From an uncultured Anaeroplasma sp. (GTDB taxonomy: Bacteria > Bacillota_I > Bacilli_A > Acholeplasmatales > Anaeroplasmataceae): a stretch of DNA of 30,059 bases. Where the stretch lies: contig CAKQBG010000022.1 of the NCBI GenBank assembly GCA_934216145.1, positions 1 through 30,059 of the forward strand, read 5' to 3'. This document shows positions 1,381-12,470 of the stretch, piece by piece (position 1 is the stretch's first letter; each line of letters starts with the position of its first letter). Both the position numbers and the translations under genes were made by a program. The notes below the pieces were generated by a model. It saw only the letters and a program-made list of their open reading frames with translations, did no database searches and had not been told where the DNA came from.

Positions 1381-1447
1381 AAAATAATTATAGCTTTTTT
1401 TAAAATTAAAATAAAGGTGTGCTAACAATATATTTATAAATAATGAT

Positions 1448-1498
1448 AAAAAGCCTAACTATTAGACTATATAATATAGCTTTTAATAGCTAGGCTTT
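1448..1498 (-). terminator. Rho-independent terminator of the ESCRT/TIR operon
   Basis: Two 15-base arms at 1450-1464 and 1484-1498 are complementary with a single G-U wobble (minus strand AAAGCCTAGCTATTA and TAATAGTTAGGCTTT). The second arm runs straight into a short T-rich tail on the minus strand. It sits just after the stop of the protease gene and closes the seven-gene operon. Confidence 0.85.
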
Positions 1499-1506
1499 AA
1501 TAAAAT

Positions 1507-2301
1507 TTAAATCCTAATATTTAATTCTTCAGTATCAATTGCTCTTCTAATAAAGCTAACTAATACACTTACTGGTATAGCATAATTCATAGTTTGAACA
1601 ACTTCATCTCCTAAAGTAATCATTCCTACTAATTTTCCTTTAGAATCAAGTAAAGGTCCACCAGAATTACCATTAGTAGTAGGAGCTGAAATCATAATAT
1701 ATTCTTTTTTATTGATAATTCTAGATTTATCACTTACTAATCCATTCACAATACATAGCCCATGTCCCTTACTATTACCAATTGCATAAATACTATCACC
1801 AGTTTCTACAGCTTCATTTGAAAAAGAAATCTGTCCCTTTAGCATATCAGAATACATTAATGCAATATCATTTTCCTTATCAGCATATATAAATTCCAAT
1901 TCACAAGAAGAAATAGCTTCGCCATTACAAATATATGTATCACATAAATCAATAATATCATTAGTATTACTACTATTTCCAATAACAACATGCTTATTAG
2001 TTAAAACATACCCATTACCAATTAAAATACCAGTACCACACTTAATTATTTCATTATGCTTACATCTAATAGAAATAACATTATTAATATTCATCTTAAA
2101 AATCTCATTAGGTGATAAAATATTATTATTACTTAAGCTTTTATTCTTTTCTTTTTCTAAAAAAGACCTTTTTGTTGAAAAAACCTCAAGACAAGCATTA
2201 CATCCATATTTATAGAATACATTATCATATATATATTCTTTATTAATCTCAACTATATCAATTGAACCACATATAGGACATTTTTTTGCTTTATATTCCA
2301 T
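1507..2301 (-). CDS. Zinc-ribbon trypsin-like (HtrA/S1C-type) serine protease without PDZ
   Basis: A 264-residue protein. An N-terminal zinc ribbon has Cys8, Cys11, Cys34 and Cys37. The rest is a chymotrypsin-fold protease with an apparently complete triad: His104 in LTNKHVV, Asp145 in ENDIAL and Ser213 in GNSGGP. No PDZ domain, signal peptide or membrane segment is visible, so unlike DegP/HtrA it should act in the cytoplasm; the ribbon may bind nucleic acid or protein. The start at 2301 follows an AAGGA site, 4 bases after the AAA ATPase stop. A TTG at 2337, inside the ATPase gene, would add 12 residues but has no good ribosome site. It is the last gene of the operon and a candidate effector of it. 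Similar proteases act in bacterial conflict systems and are often held inactive until triggered; that role here is inference. Confidence 0.85.
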   Translation of the reverse strand: MEYKAKKCPICGSIDIVEINKEYIYDNVFYKYGCNACLEVFSTKRSFLEKEKNKSLSNNNILSPNEIFKMNINNVISIRCKHNEIIKCGTGILIGNGYVLTNKHVVIGNSSNTNDIIDLCDTYICNGEAISSCELEFIYADKENDIALMYSDMLKGQISFSNEAVETGDSIYAIGNSKGHGLCIVNGLVSDKSRIINKKEYIMISAPTTNGNSGGPLLDSKGKLVGMITLGDEVVQTMNYAIPVSVLVSFIRRAIDTEELNIRI

Positions 2302-2305
2302 AAAA

Positions 2306-3415
2306 CTATATCCTTCCATTCTCTTTAAACGCTTCAAATTTTAAAATATCCTCTTCACTAATCATGTTATGTGAAGAACTAATAGCTATATTACAATCCT
2401 CATTATTAATCTTTTGATAATCTCCCATACTTAATGATCTAGAATAAGCATTTAATCTAATCTTTTCACATATAGCAGTTATATCTCCACCACCATATCC
2501 TTTAAGACGCTTTGCAATCTCACTAATATTTAAATCATCTTCCAGTACTACACCATCTAATGCCTTTGATACTAAGAATTCTCTAGCATCTTGATCGGGA
2601 ATAGATACATAAATATGAGTATCAAATCTACCACCTCTAAGCATAGCAGAATCAATAGCCCATGGTCTATTAGTAGCTGCTATTAACAAAAGCATTTTAT
2701 TTTTATTTTTTTTAAATCCATCTACCTTTGTTAAAAATGTCGCAACAAATCTACTCATTTCTTGATCTACTCCATCACTAGTATCAGATCTTTTACTAGC
2801 TACAGAATCAAATTCATCAAAAAATATAATAGCTCTATCATTCTTTTCAGCTTCATTAAATAAATCATCAAGCCTTTTACTAGAATCTCCCATATATTTA
2901 GAAATTAAATCTTGACAATTAACTGCATAAAAAGCTGCATCTACCTCTCCTGCAATCGCTCTTGCAATAAAGGTTTTACCAGTACCAGGTGGACCATATA
3001 ATAATATTTTAGCTCCTGGTGTAATTTTATACATTGAAGCAAGTTTAGGATTTTTTAATGGTTCTAATACCTTAAGTCTAATTTGCTCTTTAACATCATC
3101 TAATCCAGCAACATCCTTAAATGTAATTAGAGATTTCTCTAATGGTTTAAATTCATTAACAACATCACTAGATCCATTTTCAATTTTTTTAGGCTTTACT
3201 ACACATTCATTTTTTATAAAAGCTAATATCTTTACTGCATTTTTATAATAGATATTTCTTACCTCAAATGATGAAGAATTAATAGAAATATCATTAGCTA
3301 GCTCACAAGCCTTTATAAAAGCCTCTCTAGCGCCATTAATATCACCATTAGTATATAATTCTTTTCCTTGTGCATAAAAGCTATTAAACGCTTCTATTTT
3401 GGGTTGATTATTCAT
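2306..3415 (-). CDS. MIT-like domain + AAA ATPase (Vps4/katanin/spastin-like)
   Basis: A 369-residue protein. Residues about 8-70 form a helical, TPR/MIT-like three-helix segment; about 98-330 is an AAA domain with Walker A GPPGTGKT (141-148), Walker B IIFFDE (196-201), sensor 1 ATN (247-249), arginine fingers in LRGGRFD (Arg260, Arg263) and pore loop KYMGDSSK (173-180), close to the SKW-x-GES-x-K loop of Vps4-type enzymes. MIT-AAA architecture is that of Vps4 and spastin, which pull ESCRT-III or tubulin tails through a hexameric pore. The partner gene for an ESCRT-III-like protein with a MIM1-like tail lies two genes upstream. It overlaps the TIR gene by ATGA, which indicates translational coupling. 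An alternative reading is a FtsH/Cdc48-like AAA with a TPR head. Confidence 0.85.
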   Translation of the reverse strand: MNNQPKIEAFNSFYAQGKELYTNGDINGAREAFIKACELANDISINSSSFEVRNIYYKNAVKILAFIKNECVVKPKKIENGSSDVVNEFKPLEKSLITFKDVAGLDDVKEQIRLKVLEPLKNPKLASMYKITPGAKILLYGPPGTGKTFIARAIAGEVDAAFYAVNCQDLISKYMGDSSKRLDDLFNEAEKNDRAIIFFDEFDSVASKRSDTSDGVDQEMSRFVATFLTKVDGFKKNKNKMLLLIAATNRPWAIDSAMLRGGRFDTHIYVSIPDQDAREFLVSKALDGVVLEDDLNISEIAKRLKGYGGGDITAICEKIRLNAYSRSLSMGDYQKINNEDCNIAISSSHNMISEEDILKFEAFKENGRI

Positions 3416-4908
3416 TGTTTTAAATTCCTTCTTAATTCATAATATTCTATAGCCTTAGCAAAATGGATAAATAAGCTAATAATCCATCCATAAACAAATA
3501 AACCAAAAGTGAATAAAAATAAAAAGCCTCTTTTTATATCTCCTCTAGCAAAATGATGAATTCCAAAAACACCAAAAAATAAGCATAAAATAAAAATCAA
3601 CCAAGGACTTCTTCCTCTATAATACTTTCTAAGCTTTTCAAATTCTGGATTTTTCTTAGTTTGCTTGTTAATATAAGTATTATTAGTTCTTTCATTTGAA
3701 TAGCTTTTATTTTCGAATGAACTATTTGATTCATTATAGCTTTTATTATCCTTTTGATATTTTTCATATTTAGTTTTAATCTTTTCTTTTTCATGATTTA
3801 TCTTTGTAAGAATTTCATCTTTAATATTTTTTTTATTATTAAAATCATTTTGTTTTCTATTATTTAAAAAATCATATCCACATTTTTTACAAAATTTATA
3901 ATTTATATCATTAATTTCATAACAATTAGGACAGGTTTTTTCATTAATACTATTCTTTTTATTATCAGTGCTTTCTTCTTTAGATTCTATTTTTTCTTCT
4001 TTATTAGAATTCAAAAATTTTTTTATTACATCCTCAATATCAGAATAAAAATGCTTAGTATCAGCATTAATTGCTTGAATTTTTTTTAACGCAATAGGTA
4101 ATTCTCTTGCATCAAAGCCTTCATAGCAAACAATTAATGAGCCTTCTTTCTTTTTTTCATTTGCAATAGCCAAATTATATCTACGCCATTCATTTTGAAC
4201 CCAAGTAGATGTAAAATATTCAGGCTTAGTCCCATATACTATCATAACCTTAGCTTTAAGAATTGCATCAAAAATAAATGGCTCACAATTTTCTCCATAA
4301 ATACCATTAGCATTTAAGGTAACATCACTAAAAAATACTTTATATCCTTTATTAGTTAAATACCAATATAATTCACGCATATTTGTTCTATCTATTGTAT
4401 CATTATTTGTTTCATCATCTGTACCTTTAAAGCTGATAAATATATCAGTATTAATTCTTGAAGCCTTTTCTCTCCATATTTTTGAAACGTTAGCTATTTT
4501 TTCTGCTTCAGCTTGATATTTCATTCTAAGATTATCAGGAGCATATTTTAAAGCCTTTTTATAATCATCACTTTCTCTTATATCCTCATAGCTCTCTATA
4601 TAGCATGAAGGAGTAGACTTTCCTTTATCATATTCATATTTAATTCCATATTTTGCAAGTAACCTTCCCCAATATCCACTACTCCAATTAGGATATTTTT
4701 TAATTATCAAATCAAATCTAGATTCAGCCTCTTCAAATCTAGGAGGTGTATCTATTAAATATTTAATTGCATCATTATATTCAATATCCTGTTCATTAGA
4801 TTCTTCTAATACTTTAGTAGCACCACATGCTTCACATTTATAATAAGAGTCCTTTTTTTCAAGCCTAGGATATCCACATACCTGACACTTCAAATCTATA
4901 AAGTTCAT
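3412..4908 (-). CDS. Zinc ribbon - TIR domain - zinc ribbon - TM2 membrane protein
   Basis: A 498-residue protein with four parts. A zinc ribbon has Cys8, 11, 25 and 28. After a helical region (about 40-148), residues 154-300 form a TIR domain: DIFISFKG opening strand, GYKVFFSD second strand, FIFDAILKAKVMIVYG, and STWVQNEW, where Glu240 takes the place of the catalytic Glu of NAD-cleaving TIRs such as SARM1. A second ribbon has Cys326, 329, 340 and 343. A charged, asparagine/lysine-rich linker leads to a TM2 domain (about 433-482) with two membrane segments and FGVFGIHHFARGD. TIR domains hydrolyse NAD or make signalling nucleotides from it; here the enzyme would be tethered to the membrane. 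Ribosome site AGGAG lies 7 bases before the start. Confidence 0.85.
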   Translation of the reverse strand: MNFIDLKCQVCGYPRLEKKDSYYKCEACGATKVLEESNEQDIEYNDAIKYLIDTPPRFEEAESRFDLIIKKYPNWSSGYWGRLLAKYGIKYEYDKGKSTPSCYIESYEDIRESDDYKKALKYAPDNLRMKYQAEAEKIANVSKIWREKASRINTDIFISFKGTDDETNNDTIDRTNMRELYWYLTNKGYKVFFSDVTLNANGIYGENCEPFIFDAILKAKVMIVYGTKPEYFTSTWVQNEWRRYNLAIANEKKKEGSLIVCYEGFDARELPIALKKIQAINADTKHFYSDIEDVIKKFLNSNKEEKIESKEESTDNKKNSINEKTCPNCYEINDINYKFCKKCGYDFLNNRKQNDFNNKKNIKDEILTKINHEKEKIKTKYEKYQKDNKSYNESNSSFENKSYSNERTNNTYINKQTKKNPEFEKLRKYYRGRSPWLIFILCLFFGVFGIHHFARGDIKRGFLFLFTFGLFVYGWIISLFIHFAKAIEYYELRRNLKQ

Positions 4909-4934
4909 AATAAAACTCCTAAAAATTAAAATTA

Positions 4935-5525
4935 TTAATTGGTTTTATTCTTTAATGCATTAATTTCATCAGTTAAATCAATTCCAACACTTTTAGAACT
5001 AGGTGTTGAAATGCCACTTAATTTACTACGCTCTAAATCAATCATAGGTCTAACAGAATTAATTTCCTCTTCACTTCTAGCATGATTAGCTGGATTAGAT
5101 CTTTTCATAGCACTACTCATAGCCTTCTGAGATATTTTTACATTCCTCATATATTTAGCAATCTTTTGATTAGCTCTCTGTATTTTCTTAATATTTGGTA
5201 AATTAACCTTTCCATTTGCCATTTTATCTAATGCATTCATAGCTGTAGCTGTACTAATAGCAATAGAGTTAGAAATATTTATTATATCAAAATTAGCTTT
5301 TGTTTGAGTTAAGCTAGAAATAACATCATTCAATTCTATTAAAGCATTTAAAGCAACATCATAAGTACCTGTATCACCATTTATTTCAGCTTCAGCAGCA
5401 ACCTTAGCATATTCTGTTCTTTTAACCTTTAAAGTATTAATTTGTTCATTAAATATTTCCATTTGCTCATCTCGTTCCATTTGAGCTTCTATTTCCTTTT
5501 CCTGCTTTGACTTAAAAAATGCCAT
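4935..5525 (-). CDS. ESCRT-III/Snf7-like filament protein with C-terminal MIM1-like motif
   Basis: A 196-residue, almost entirely helical, charged protein. By eye it follows the eukaryotic/archaeal CHMP2-type pattern: a long first helical hairpin (about 5-75), a TKANFDII segment, a helix ending MNALDKMANGKVNLPNIKKI (96-115; CHMP2 proteins have AM...L-LPQIQKI here), then KIAKYM...AMSSAM (121-140). After a polar linker the C-terminus reads LTDEINALK (184-192), which fits the MIT-interacting motif 1 spacing L-x-x-R-L-x-x-L-K except that Arg is Glu. ESCRT-III proteins polymerise on membranes and are disassembled by Vps4. AAGGAGG lies 9 bases before the start, and the gap to the upstream gene is one base. 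The bacterial relatives PspA/Vipp1 normally lack a MIM tail. Family assignment rests on recalled sequences. Confidence 0.65.
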   Translation of the reverse strand: MAFFKSKQEKEIEAQMERDEQMEIFNEQINTLKVKRTEYAKVAAEAEINGDTGTYDVALNALIELNDVISSLTQTKANFDIINISNSIAISTATAMNALDKMANGKVNLPNIKKIQRANQKIAKYMRNVKISQKAMSSAMKRSNPANHARSEEEINSVRPMIDLERSKLSGISTPSSKSVGIDLTDEINALKNKTN

Positions 5526-5526
5526 G

Positions 5527-6534
5527 TTATTTATCCTCCTTAACTACTTCTATATTTTTCATTTTAGATAAATCATCATTAAATAATTCTCTTTCTCTTT
5601 TTTTTCTAATTAATTCTGCTTTTCTTTTTTGAGCAGAATCAGTAGCTTTAATATTATGATTATCTAAATTGTTAAATGTTTTTTGATCTATTTTTTCTAT
5701 ATTTTCAGATATTTTTAAAGAATCATTGTTCATTCTTTTTAATATAGATAAAGCTTTATCAGGGCTATCTAATACTGATTTTAATGCATTAATATTTAAT
5801 AATGCATTAGCTCTATCAAGACTATTTAAGGACAAATTGCTTTCATATTCAACTATTGATTTTAATCTAGAATAAATATTATTTAATAATTCATAACAAG
5901 CTGAATAATTACTTCTATTTATATTTTTAGATTCAATAATAGATTCAATAGAAGATATTTTTCTATCTAATTCGTTTAAGATTCTTTCATTATCCTCTTC
6001 TATCATTATATCCTCTAATTCAGATTTTTCTTTTTCATCAATTTGAATATCATTTTCTAATTTTTTAGAATATTCCAAAATCATATTCTTAATACTATAT
6101 AATTCAGTAAGCTTCTCATAAACAAGCTTTCGCTTCTTTTCAACTCCAAATCCTTCCTTTTTATTATTATCAATATCACAAGATAAATTTCCATCAGAAA
6201 TTAGCTTTAATTTTTCGGATAATGCTAATAAATCATTAGCCTTTAATAGAGCTTTATTATTAGAATCATTATTTAATTGATTTTTTAATTCAGTTATTGC
6301 TTTATCTATATTTTCATATTCTAATTTTATATTCTCTTTACCAGTAAATACCAATGATTCTATTTTAGATAATGCTTCAATTACAATTGATAACACCTTA
6401 TCTATAGTATCTTTAGATAAGCTTCCTAAATATTTATTATTTTGAATATCAAAAATAATATAATTTAATTTGTTTTTTAGATTATCTTGATATTCAATAT
6501 TTTCATTTAATAAATTCTTTTTTCTAAATAGCAT
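5527..6534 (-). CDS. Coiled-coil protein, possible second ESCRT-III-like component
   Basis: A 335-residue, lysine/glutamate/asparagine-rich protein predicted by eye to be long helices throughout. It opens MLFRKKNLL, a short basic-hydrophobic stretch that could touch membrane. The C-terminal third (about 240-300) has the same helix rhythm as the neighbouring ESCRT-III-like protein, but no motif clear enough to call. The start at 6534 is chosen because AGGAG lies 7 bases upstream; an in-frame ATG at 6552 overlaps the end of the SPFH gene and precedes that site. Gene spacing is 10 bases upstream and one base downstream, so it is translated with the ESCRT-III-like protein. No recognised family; function unknown. 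Confidence 0.7.
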   Translation of the reverse strand: MLFRKKNLLNENIEYQDNLKNKLNYIIFDIQNNKYLGSLSKDTIDKVLSIVIEALSKIESLVFTGKENIKLEYENIDKAITELKNQLNNDSNNKALLKANDLLALSEKLKLISDGNLSCDIDNNKKEGFGVEKKRKLVYEKLTELYSIKNMILEYSKKLENDIQIDEKEKSELEDIMIEEDNERILNELDRKISSIESIIESKNINRSNYSACYELLNNIYSRLKSIVEYESNLSLNSLDRANALLNINALKSVLDSPDKALSILKRMNNDSLKISENIEKIDQKTFNNLDNHNIKATDSAQKRKAELIRKKRERELFNDDLSKMKNIEVVKEDK

Positions 6535-6544
6535 ATACATTCTC

Positions 6545-7195
6545 CTATCCATTAATATGATTTCTTATTATATCTAAATCATCATCATTAACATGTATAA
6601 TATTTACTACTAATGATTTAACCTTTAAGCCCATATTCTTTATAATTAATTCATTAGAAAGAGAATTAAATAATTGAATTCTTATATCCTCAAGCTTAGA
6701 ATTGATTTCAAATACAGATACATCAGTATTAGCAAAATATTTACTTAATACATCAGCTCCAATATTTTTTATCACTGGAATAATTTTAAATTTTATCATA
6801 TCAACACTAATATTTTTTCCCCAAATAAATGAATCGACCAATTTTACTCTATCTATTATTTCGAATTGCAATGTTCCATTAGAACCAACTCTATAGCATT
6901 CCTTTAATCTTTGATTATTTACATTAATGTCTCCAAATCCCCATATGATATCAGGTAAGGCTTTCTTTTTTATAAAAGCAACCTTAAAATTCTTTTTTAA
7001 AAAATCCTTATTTATTTTATAAATAATATATCTTCCATCATTTTCTCTAAATGATACTTTTCCATTAATATACCCAATCATTTCATATTGATTAGGTACA
7101 TCTACTACTAAATTCTTTTCAACAATATAATCATCACTAAATTGAATAATAATATCATTATTTATTTCCTGTGGTGTAATAATCATTTCCTTCAT
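6545..7195 (-). CDS. SPFH/band-7 domain protein (YdjI-like)
   Basis: A 216-residue protein. The order of features matches cytosolic SPFH proteins of the YdjI type: a PDIIWGFGDI segment (81-90) where YdjI-like proteins have a PLLWGTG-type stretch, the strand with YRVGSNGTLQFEIID (101-115), then a helical part SKLEDIRIQLFNSL (166-179) and a closing strand NMGLKVKSLVVNII (187-200). SPFH proteins scaffold membrane patches; in Bacillus subtilis, YdjI is encoded with PspA (an ESCRT-III relative) and helps place it at the membrane. No membrane segment is visible here. AGGAG lies 6 bases before the start, 9 bases after the regulator's stop. The downstream ESCRT-III-like and zinc-ribbon/membrane proteins echo the ydjFGHI layout. 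Confidence 0.8.
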   Translation of the reverse strand: MKEMIITPQEINNDIIIQFSDDYIVEKNLVVDVPNQYEMIGYINGKVSFRENDGRYIIYKINKDFLKKNFKVAFIKKKALPDIIWGFGDINVNNQRLKECYRVGSNGTLQFEIIDRVKLVDSFIWGKNISVDMIKFKIIPVIKNIGADVLSKYFANTDVSVFEINSKLEDIRIQLFNSLSNELIIKNMGLKVKSLVVNIIHVNDDDLDIIRNHING

Positions 7196-7204
7196 ATAAA
7201 GCTC

Positions 7205-7549
7205 CTATTTATTGATAATTTCATTTAATTTTATTAATGTCTCTTCATCTATGTCATCAGACATTATTTTGGAAATCATTTGTTTTTTCACTTCAGCTAA
7301 TTCAGTTAAATCTATTTTTATTGTTTTACTAGAAGCTAAAATTGAATCCTTTAGCTTCTTTTTATCTTTATCAGATAAAGAATATGCATGGCAAATATTA
7401 TCATATAATGAATCAGGTATAGGCCTTTTTCCATTTTCAATAGAAGATAAATATGCAGCGCTTATTCCAAGCTTATTTGCCATTCCCCTTAAACTATCTT
7501 CACTATTTATTCTTATTATTCTTAATATTTTTCCAAATTCAGTAACCAT
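7205..7549 (-). CDS. XRE-family transcriptional regulator
   Basis: A 114-residue protein with a Cro/CI-type helix-turn-helix at about residues 18-42, including SLRGMANKLGISAAYLSSIE, followed by a helical tail with no sensor domain. The start at 7549 follows AAGGAGGAGC; the in-frame ATG at 7573 cannot be used because it overlaps the promoter's -10 box. It is the first gene of the operon, 9 bases from the SPFH gene, and three TTTGYGAA repeats lie just upstream of its promoter, so it probably controls its own operon. Whether it represses or activates cannot be told from the sequence. Confidence 0.9.
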   Translation of the reverse strand: MVTEFGKILRIIRINSEDSLRGMANKLGISAAYLSSIENGKRPIPDSLYDNICHAYSLSDKDKKKLKDSILASSKTIKIDLTELAEVKKQMISKIMSDDIDEETLIKLNEIINK

Positions 7550-7571
7550 AAATAGCTCCTCCTTATATTTC

Positions 7572-7600
7572 ATTATATTCTTTCATTCCTCTTTTGTCAA
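7572..7600 (-). promoter_or_regulatory. Consensus sigma-A promoter of the ESCRT/TIR operon
   Basis: On the minus strand a perfect TTGACA (7600-7595) and a perfect TATAAT (7577-7572) are separated by exactly 17 bases. Transcription should start near 7565, just before the ribosome site of the regulator gene. A perfect consensus promoter upstream of potentially toxic genes suggests that it is normally repressed. Confidence 0.85.
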
Positions 7601-7604
7601 CTAA

Positions 7605-7657
7605 TTTGTGAACGAATTTTACGTATTTTTGCGAAATGGTTTCACTCTTTTGTGAAC
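7605..7657. promoter_or_regulatory. Three phased operator-like repeats TTTGYGAA
   Basis: Direct repeats TTTGTGAAC (7605-7613), TTTGCGAA (7628-7635) and TTTGTGAAC (7649-7657) lie immediately upstream of the -35 box. Their starts are 23 and 21 bases apart, about two helical turns each, so a bound protein would sit on one face of the DNA. The XRE protein encoded next door is the obvious candidate binder. Confidence 0.6.
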
Positions 7658-7666
7658 AAAGAGAGT

Positions 7667-8377: not shown

Positions 8378-9337
8378 TTATCCCAAATAAAACTTAGTAG
8401 AAACCGATCTACTACTACAAAATTCAAATGTTAAATTGCTTTTACCTTTGTAAACATAAAATACGCAATTATCACCATTTTTCCACTTGACAATAAAATC
8501 TTTTCTTCCATCATTATTTATATCTGATAAATATAACGAAGTAGGAAAAATAGAAATATCATGAGTATTACTAGTTGTAGTGGTAATGCTAGATTCAAAA
8601 TTTCCATTAACATCGCCTTTAAAAATATCAAATGTCCTTTTCTTATTAGCGTTGGCATAATGAATTATCAAATCATCATTTCCATCTCCATTAATATCAC
8701 CTAAAAATCTCGATTCACCATTATGAACATTTTCATATTTTAACATTGTATCATATATAGAGTCGATTATATATGGGCTAGAATTACAACCTTTATAAGT
8801 TAATGAATTTCTAAAATTATTATCAATAAAAATATCAATAAAATCCGTCTTATTATCTCCATTTATATCGCCAACTAAATATTCAAATTCAAATATCTCA
8901 GGTAAATGATTTCTTGTACTTGTTAAAATCCTTCCTTCATTAAAGGAACCATCATTATTGCCTTTTGCTCCTATAATTCCAGCGACAGATGTTCCATGAT
9001 TACGCTCGTCTAAAATAGTCGAACTAGATGAAATTTTTCCATTCATAATTGTTGCACTCTTGCTTATATCTATATTGCATGAAATATCTGAATGTCCGCT
9101 TTGTATCCCACTATCAATTACTCCTACTGAAACAAAACTAGAGCCTATCATAATATTCCATGCATCGCTCAAATTAATGTTTTTTATCGCCCATTGTTGA
9201 TTAGAATATACATCATTAACACTTGTAGAAAGCGACTCAATTATATAGTCTGGACTTATTGCAACAACTTCTATTTTTAAAAATATTTCTATTGCTTTAA
9301 CTACATTACTATTATTAATAAATAAAGATATATTACA
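8378..9337 (-). pseudogene. Remnant of an S8 (subtilisin-like) protease with FG-GAP/VCBS repeats
   Basis: The frame is open from 9337 to 8378 but begins right after a stop and has no ATG near its start; the first usable codon is a TTG at 9172. Coding similarity starts before that TTG: NQQWAIKNINLSDAWNI is the usual run-up to the S8 domain. The catalytic Asp (VGVIDSGI) and His (RNHGTSVAGIIGA) regions are present, but the catalytic Ser motif (GTSMA) is missing; the protein jumps straight to calcium-binding-like FG-GAP repeats (DINGDNKTDFID, DINGDGNDDLI, DINNDGRKDFI). So both the signal peptide end and the middle of the catalytic domain are lost. Confidence 0.75.
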
Positions 9338-11366: not shown

Positions 11367-12470
11367 TCACTTTGTAAAACTAATATATGATACTTTTAAT
11401 CCTGAATATTTATAAGATAAACTATAACTTGTGATTCTTGTTGTTCCAGAATTTGGAATTAATATTCCTTTTTCGACCCATTCATTCATCCATTTAGATA
11501 TTGCACGTGGTGTTACACCAAATAAATTTGCAATCTCTTTGTTTTTTACAATTTTTAAATTATTTTCTATACAATATCTAAGTAATGTTAAATCTTTTTT
11601 ATTTAGGTATTTTAAAAATTCATTTGACCCACTTTGTGATGCTTCTAAAGCCTGTTCATATATCTTTTCAGCATTAAGCGCCATAATTTTACAGAAATAC
11701 TCAATCCATATTTCTAAGTGAGGCGGATTTTCTCTACTAGAATAAAATAATGCTGGAAGTCCCATCTGAATAGATTCATAATATCCATTTAAATCAGACA
11801 TATAATATTCTTCAAATGAATTAAAACCTTTAAAATCATAATCATGCTGCATAAGTACATATGTTGATAAAGCCCTTGATGTTCTACCGTTTCCATCTAT
11901 AAATGGATGAATTGTAACTAATGCATAATGCATGATTGCAGATAAAATTGGTACTGGTAAATCTTGATTATTATCATACCAGTTAATCAATTCATTAATA
12001 AGTGGTTCAATATCTATCCATTCAGGTGGAATATATTCAGCTTGCTTTGATATAGAATCATATACTGCAAATAATACTCCAGGAGGAGTTTGTCCTCTAA
12101 AAGGTATTCTTGATAATTTACCTTTTTTTTGAATAATATCATGAAGTTTTAATATAAATTCCATATCAATTTTTGTATTTTTCTTTTTTTCTTCTTCAAG
12201 ATAAGTTAGTGCATCCCAATAATTTTGAACCTCTTGTTCAGCGGTTATTCTATTATCCTTTTTATTTGCAATAACTCGTTCAACTTGATTATATGACAAA
12301 ACGTTTCCTTCTATACTTGTAGAAAAATGAGTTTTCTTTAATTTTGCTTCATACATTAACTTTTGCTTTTCTCTTGTAGGTAGCAACAAATAATCTAATG
12401 CTGTTTTATATTTTTCAATTTTTAAAAGACTATTTACTAATTCATTAGTATATTTAAATTCCAATTTCAT
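11367..12470 (-). CDS. Fic-domain protein with N-terminal inhibitory motif and C-terminal winged helix
   Basis: A 367-residue protein of the common DUF4172-like/Fic_N architecture. The Fic active site is complete: HPFIDGNGR at 188-196. The inhibitory helix motif S-x-x-x-E-G is present at 50-55 (STSIEG), making this a class II Fic protein whose own Glu54 blocks the nucleotide until relieved. Residues about 300-345 form a winged helix (NKEIANLFGVTPRAISKWMN). Fic enzymes usually transfer AMP to hydroxyl side chains of proteins. AGGTGG precedes the start. Tandem repeats in its promoter suggest autoregulation through the winged helix. There is no antitoxin gene next door, as expected for the self-inhibited class. 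Confidence 0.9.
   Translation of the reverse strand: MKLEFKYTNELVNSLLKIEKYKTALDYLLLPTREKQKLMYEAKLKKTHFSTSIEGNVLSYNQVERVIANKKDNRITAEQEVQNYWDALTYLEEEKKKNTKIDMEFILKLHDIIQKKGKLSRIPFRGQTPPGVLFAVYDSISKQAEYIPPEWIDIEPLINELINWYDNNQDLPVPILSAIMHYALVTIHPFIDGNGRTSRALSTYVLMQHDYDFKGFNSFEEYYMSDLNGYYESIQMGLPALFYSSRENPPHLEIWIEYFCKIMALNAEKIYEQALEASQSGSNEFLKYLNKKDLTLLRYCIENNLKIVKNKEIANLFGVTPRAISKWMNEWVEKGILIPNSGTTRITSYSLSYKYSGLKVSYISFTK

Follow-up and report, generated by a model that had tools for sequence, protein, structure and literature searches.

A conserved bacterial operon encodes a predicted ESCRT-III-like protein and an AAA ATPase with a predicted MIT-like domain alongside SPFH, TIR and protease proteins

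We analyzed a stretch of 30,059 nucleotides (the window) from an uncultured Anaeroplasma sp., positions 1 to 30,059 of contig CAKQBG010000022.1 in assembly GCA_934216145.1, and focused on a seven-gene operon that it contains. In human cells, ESCRT-III filaments sever and reseal membranes, and the MIT-type domain is the part of an ATPase that grips ESCRT-III. The operon encodes a protein with a predicted ESCRT-III-like fold, which we call ESC, together with an AAA ATPase bearing a predicted MIT-like domain, an SPFH protein, a TIR protein, a trypsin-like protease, a coiled-coil protein (CC) and a helix-turn-helix (HTH) protein. The same gene order is found again in other contigs, and ESC and the MIT-like domain mark one and the same set of genomes. 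An earlier note on this DNA had proposed that the operon senses membrane damage, attempts repair, and triggers NAD loss and proteolysis if repair fails. The reading that we favor, with about even confidence, is that filaments are built and recycled on the inner face of the membrane, and that the TIR enzyme and the protease are switched on when the membrane is breached. The best supported part of this reading is the ESCRT-like core, in which a putative membrane-side polymer is served by an MIT-AAA motor and accompanied by an SPFH protein.

The distribution of the system is patchy, with ESC profile matches in 29 of the 248 genomes of one order, the centre genome included. The MIT-like profile matches these same 29 genomes and none of the 219 ESC-free genomes. 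The probability of this shared set in a random draw is approximately 10 to the -38, a figure that ignores the origin of the profile and the kinship of the genomes; all rows of the MIT profile came from ESC loci, with 15 of the 29 genomes supplying rows and 14 supplying none, and thus the comparison is not a blind test. By coordinates, the two genes lie within 250 bases of each other in 23 of the 29 genomes; in 28 they share a contig and are no more than 8 kb apart, and in the remaining genome they occupy separate contigs. A locus without an AAA gene (L008) comes from a genome that has an MIT match close to the beginning of a different contig (G611), perhaps reflecting an assembly break.

The gene set is also conserved locus by locus. 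We assembled 39 ESC loci, consisting of the window, 13 contig records and 25 loci from whole genomes, and counted same-strand matches up to 12 kb away or as far as the stretch extends. These counts are not independent: ESC was the criterion by which the loci were chosen, and the loci in turn supplied the profiles. Several loci also belong to related species, and several are truncated at contig ends. AAA and SPFH genes are each present in 36 of the 39 loci and TIR genes in 28, while trypsin-like (14), HTH (13), BrxL (5) and RuvB (2, within the operons of L012 and L084) genes are less frequent. A helical partner accompanies ESC in 29 loci, either CC (14) or a second family, hel (15), but never both, and it lies upstream of ESC in every locus except L026. 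Excluding ESC and RuvB, none of the 169 matches fell on the opposite strand. The earlier note had asked whether the AAA, ESC and SPFH genes stay together while the effectors vary, and these counts, along with the shared genome set, show that they do. Three short matches within other frames (L015, L016 and L025) were dropped as spurious before counting, and the whole-genome stretches also include four weak matches and one near relative. In the genomes of the order there are 37 ESC places, of which nine fall in stretches already in the set and 26 in 20 further stretches, whereas G474 and G476, near contig ends, are outside the locus set. For L001 and L002 the AAA counted is a second AAA; a gene that matches the window ATPase from its first residue onward follows the TIR gene and runs off the end of the stretch. 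RuvB was counted with a single-sequence search after a profile search drifted to all AAA proteins.

ESC is the best conserved protein of the operon, with a median identity of 71% among 14 close relatives. Its AF2 model contains helices at residues 7-49, 52-102, 112-142, 152-170 and 184-195, predicting the architecture of the ESCRT-III superfamily, in which shorter helices come after a long alpha1-alpha2 hairpin. In a Foldseek search with this model the superfamily takes 20 of the top 21 ranks, with no E value below 0.001, and BAR domains score as high as ESCRT-III by VIA. Over the core, hhalign aligns ESC with an ESCRT-III profile collinearly at 93.9%, compared with at most 1.3% for shuffled sequences. 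Matches to single sequences are weaker (CHMP2A 68%, CHMP3 6.6%, Snf7 0.4%), and the score against PspA alone is 2.3%. The window ESC falls below the cut-off of the Pfam Snf7 model (11.2 bits versus 27.3, E 0.3), and the best of 60 ESC members reaches E 0.014. Snf7 was over the cut-off in none of 10 genomes and likewise in none of 14 control genomes, Sulfolobus included. When a type II ESC profile was run against PDB sequences with hmmsearch, it matched six chains up to E 10, and no ESCRT-III protein was among them. A C-terminal helix is predicted in ESC, and the acidic-amphipathic consensus of its relatives fits the MIT-interacting motif MIM1 only partly. The claim that the helical protein is ESCRT-III-like is thus upheld by predicted fold and profile similarity, and on this basis we file ESC as ESCRT-III-like, with polymerization and membrane remodeling as putative activities. 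CC and hel were considered as further ESCRT-III candidates and rejected, with profile comparisons of at most 3.1% against ESC, ESCRT-III, PspA and each other. In a separate observation, L085:5466-7133 encodes a 555-residue fusion of an ESC domain (approximately residues 2-183) with a RuvB-like helicase (approximately 181-547, 27% identity).

A strong rival to a damage or phage response is that the operon carries out membrane-stress housekeeping, substituting in clostridia for the phage-shock (PspA) response. In that case ESC, the SPFH protein and the ATPase would keep the membrane from leaking, with the TIR protein acting as a scaffold or surface receptor rather than a killer and the protease trimming damaged proteins. 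Consistent with this notion, canonical PspA is over the cut-off in none of 35 ESC genomes (six have weak matches below it), the active-site Glu is missing from some TIR domains, and the neighbors of the operon in the window, read by eye as, for example, frr, pyrH, tsf, rpsB and dxr, resemble chromosomal housekeeping genes. PspA/Vipp1/LiaH proteins share the ESCRT-III superfamily fold in bacteria, and PMC11237479 describes PspA next to band-7 and AAA partners. PspA is, however, over the cut-off in just 2 of the 248 genomes of the order, and because it is scarce across the whole order no specific replacement is shown and this reading is weakened. A patchy distribution (29 of 248) and swapped accessory proteins are also unlike housekeeping. 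ESC itself differs from PspA: PF04012 (PspA_IM30) is absent from the matches of the window ESC at E up to 10 and from those of the ESC members listed, hhalign gives the low score noted above, and a combination with TIR and MIT was not found in the passages of PMC11237479 covered here. Taken together, we regard a maintenance role as less likely than the favored reading.

The second component of the core is the ATPase, whose N-terminal domain is predicted to adopt an MIT-like fold, as in Vps4 and CdvC. In an unrooted tree with seven references, the 16 operon AAAs form a single clade (bootstrap 100) between the Vps4/katanin/spastin group and Cdc48/PAN/FtsH, and the window AAA domain is not placed within the Vps4/katanin/spastin clade. 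A Vps4_C match at the C-terminus of the window ATPase (15.6 bits, E 0.016) is below the cut-off of 21.3; two relatives exceed it, the second AAA of L002 (24.5) and the ATPase of L027 (23.9). The Vps4-like label of the earlier note is supported for the predicted N-terminal domain and not for the AAA clade. That note had also named a result contrary to its view, namely ESC outside ESCRT-III together with an ATPase outside the Vps4/katanin clade, and only the second half occurred. We predict that the ATPase works like Vps4/CdvC without assigning it to that family.

The resemblance to the eukaryotic and archaeal ESCRT-III and Vps4/CdvC systems lies in a helical hairpin subunit with collinear profile similarity, an MIT-type domain on an AAA ATPase, adjacent genes, and several subunit paralogues in some loci (two ESC copies in L082, three in L079, L081 and L084). 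The operon differs in its separate AAA clade, its missed Snf7 cut-off, its SPFH, TIR and protease partners and its hosts, which are mostly Clostridia. According to a passage of PMC7615534, bacteria lack a clear Vps4 homologue. PMC11237479 reports that bacterial genes for ESCRT-III superfamily or VPS4-like AAA proteins have membrane-proximal partners, much as we see here. Among these are VPS4-like AAA genes in which snf7 is displaced by an unrelated gene, Snf7 homologues with a transmembrane segment beside AAA genes, PspA/Snf7 genes accompanying two-AAA proteins or transporters, and PspA adjoining a two-AAA protein with an inactive N-terminal copy. The SPFH-ESC-MIT/AAA-TIR set was not found described in the passages of that paper covered here, and the Tir of its CesT/Tir chaperones differs from TIR. 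Among the literature matches listed, we found no description of the gene set; bioRxiv, all supplements and most subscription papers were outside the reach of this search. The ATPases of L070-L075 (686-729 residues) have a C-terminal AAA in the operon clade and an N-terminal AAA matching SpoVK/CbbX (scanned in L070 only), and they may overlap the two-AAA class of PMC11237479.

Alternatively, the AAA protein could feed or activate the trypsin-like protease in a toxin pair similar to IetAS, with the helical protein a mere adaptor lacking an ESCRT-like polymer function. The best PADLOC match of the AAA is indeed IetA (144 bits), the trypsin gene lies directly behind it, and this adjacency recurs in, for example, L003, L007, L010-L012, L030, L070, L073 and L075. 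We nevertheless judge such a pair improbable: the trypsin gene is not found in 25 of the 39 loci (some cut by the end of the stretch), compared with an AAA gene in 36; with the NCBIfam IetA-type model the AAA reaches 129.7, where the cut-off is 510; and IetS is a subtilase.

The SPFH, TIR and trypsin-like assignments made earlier all proved to be above Pfam cut-offs (TIR_2 39.7 versus 28, Trypsin_2 75 bits versus 27.6, SPFH in Table 1), as did HTH_3, TM2 and AAA, and neither the coiled-coil protein nor ESC matches a Pfam family above cut-off. The protease has H, D and S motifs by pattern and a zinc-ribbon-like Cys pair in its N-terminal region. The TIR protein of the window is short, has no ectodomain, and ends in a TM2 domain with predicted transmembrane helices at residues 432-450 and 463-481; its zinc ribbons are below the Pfam cut-off and seen as Cys pairs. 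It carries a catalytic-type residue, Glu240, which we take to be the TIR active-site Glu, and the protein may cleave NAD. Across 32 aligned sequences this position is Glu in 26, Leu in 3 and Ile in 1, with 2 unaligned; three of the 26 resemble another TIR type, where the alignment is uncertain. A simple hydropathy scan of TIR-profile proteins longer than 600 residues predicted a transmembrane helix in 20 of 29 and none in 9. The nine proteins with a single helix have 5-10 Lys/Arg on the TIR side versus 0-3 on the other, and because of this bias we predict that TIR lies inside and the repeats outside. LRR_5 and/or InlB-type (Flg_new) repeats are found beyond the helix in 6 of 10 main TIR proteins scanned, and that of L005 contains a C-type lectin domain. 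We consider the TIR protein likely to be a membrane receptor or effector.

Several relatives recall Toll-like receptors in having a predicted leucine-rich repeat (LRR) ectodomain, one transmembrane helix and a cytosolic TIR domain, but the order is reversed, with TIR first, the window protein has no ectodomain, and we claim no sequence relation. Giant TIR proteins with LRR, InlB-type or lectin ectodomains, which positive-inside charges place outside the cell, might instead be receptors or adhesins of a surface or vesicle apparatus of gut bacteria, for which the ESCRT-like core would shape the membrane for display or budding. We give this idea little credence, since it leaves the TIR domain and the protease unexplained, and neither the nine large TIR proteins lacking a transmembrane helix nor the window protein would fit it. 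As separate observations, L067, L068 and L069 encode long TIR-like membrane proteins with Leu at the active-site position, that of L067 (1256 residues) having no Pfam family at E up to 0.001, and the TIR membrane protein at L071:3202-7101 terminates with the C-terminal domain of ribosomal protein L7/L12.

The layout of the window operon (Table 1) agrees with the earlier description of seven tightly packed genes between one perfect promoter and one strong terminator. All seven open reading frames lie on the minus strand, the first beginning at 7549 and the last ending at 1507. Three starts (HTH, coiled coil and trypsin) were corrected from ribosome-binding sites and the first residues of relatives. 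For the HTH gene, ATG 7549 (residue 9) is the likely start because the listed ATG 7573 falls within the -10 box, and the first residue of most HTH relatives aligns to residue 9-10. With these starts the intergenic gaps are 9, 10, 1, 26, -4 and 4 bases; the listed starts would change two of them to -8 and -32. The sigma-70 promoter is the sole 12/12 match in 7.7 kb, where 0.013 are expected by first-order Markov resampling, and a 12/12 promoter also precedes the HTH gene in 4 of 12 relatives examined (L001, L002, L006 and L030). None of 200 shuffles was as stable as the terminator; an interior loop in its stem probably explains why it is absent from the list of a simple terminator scan. Two GTTCACAAA repeats at 7605-7660, upstream of the promoter, are possibly operators for the HTH protein; inspection of the upstream regions of the 12 relatives did not recover their GTTCAC core.

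Table 1. Features of the seven-gene operon (window coordinates)
Feature	Position	Strand	Basis
Promoter TTGACA-17-TATAAT, 12/12	7572..7600	-	Promoter scan
HTH regulator	7205..7549	-	HTH_3 34.2 bits vs cut-off 23 (Pfam); likely start ATG 7549
SPFH / Band 7 protein, 216 aa	6545..7195	-	Band_7_1 26.5 bits vs cut-off 24 (Pfam)
Coiled-coil protein (CC)	5527..6534	-	Open reading frame listed to 6552; likely start 6534
ESC, ESCRT-III-like protein, 196 aa	4935..5525	-	Predicted fold (AF2, Foldseek), hhalign
Zinc ribbon - TIR - zinc ribbon - TM2 protein, 498 aa	3412..4908	-	Pfam TIR_2, TM2; Cys pairs
MIT-like N-terminal domain (~residues 1-75) + AAA ATPase, 369 aa	2306..3415	-	Pfam AAA; predicted fold
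Trypsin-like serine protease	1507..2301	-	Trypsin_2; open reading frame listed to 2337; likely start 2301
Rho-independent terminator	1445..1506	-	-22.5 kcal/mol, z -5.1

Beyond the order, a class draw of 391 genomes with a type I profile gave the centre genome and two weak matches judged spurious, and a phylum draw of 398 genomes with a type II profile gave the centre genome only. No relative was found on plasmids by DNA search, on plasmids or phages by tblastn with two ESC proteins, or in viral contigs with two ESC alignments as peptide patterns, a search that reaches only close relatives. Of 13 named records, 12 are clostridial metagenome-assembled genomes and one, L005 (JAEEIL010000020.1), is labelled Elusimicrobiaceae, a different phylum, reflecting either horizontal transfer or a mis-binned contig. 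Two neighbors of the operon were also read by eye. A short open reading frame just upstream (8378-9172) resembles the start of a subtilase, with the Asp and His motifs but apparently no Ser part, and continues into FG-GAP-like repeats, and a Fic-family protein is encoded 4 kb upstream (11367-12470).

A link to defense comes from BrxL-type proteins, which lie behind the ESC-AAA pair in L027, L028, L029, L066 and L076 (in L029 behind the trypsin gene), with a full-length match of 667 bits in L027. They are the sole link to a named defense protein; the flanking genes were not run against a defense library. Although BrxL recalls BREX, the window operon lacks it, and no other BREX protein was found among seven L027 and L029 proteins scanned. 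Conflict systems built on other chassis, in which TIR, trypsin and band-7 domains occur together, are described in sections of PMC7159879. B. subtilis DynA, a membrane remodeler described in part of PMC8844932 as giving phage resistance at the population level, indicates that a bacterial membrane-remodeling protein can protect against phages; unlike the operon, it belongs to the dynamin superfamily and has neither an ESCRT fold nor TIR.

Because the core is linked to TIR, trypsin and BrxL, a damage- or phage-triggered response seems its most likely purpose. The SPFH protein would mark a membrane patch at which ESC would polymerize, and the ATPase would extract ESC subunits to reset the polymer. 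A membrane-anchored TIR protein held by this scaffold could cut NAD when the scaffold is not reset, with the protease, or BrxL in other loci, serving as an exchangeable second effector, and the HTH protein may set the level of all seven. The trigger would most likely be envelope damage by a phage or a rival's toxin. More tentatively, and with less than even confidence, we suggest that some Clostridia have an ESCRT-based innate immunity in which a true ESCRT-III filament, its MIT-AAA motor and an SPFH patch are connected to transmembrane TIR receptors, several of which have Toll-like LRR ectodomains. A breach would then be either repaired or met by NAD loss and proteolysis.

Our findings bring ESCRT-like membrane work and TIR enzymes together in one operon. 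A distant ESC-family member is carried by a named species, Anaerocaecibacter muris, in which experiments would be possible if it grows in the laboratory. Co-encoding of ESC with an MIT-type ATPase makes the origin and timing of the ESCRT recycling motor testable in bacteria. If the more tentative immunity reading is true, these genomes would contain a bacterial ESCRT-III/Vps4-type pair, and the operon would represent a bacterial forerunner or parallel of ESCRT-controlled cell death.

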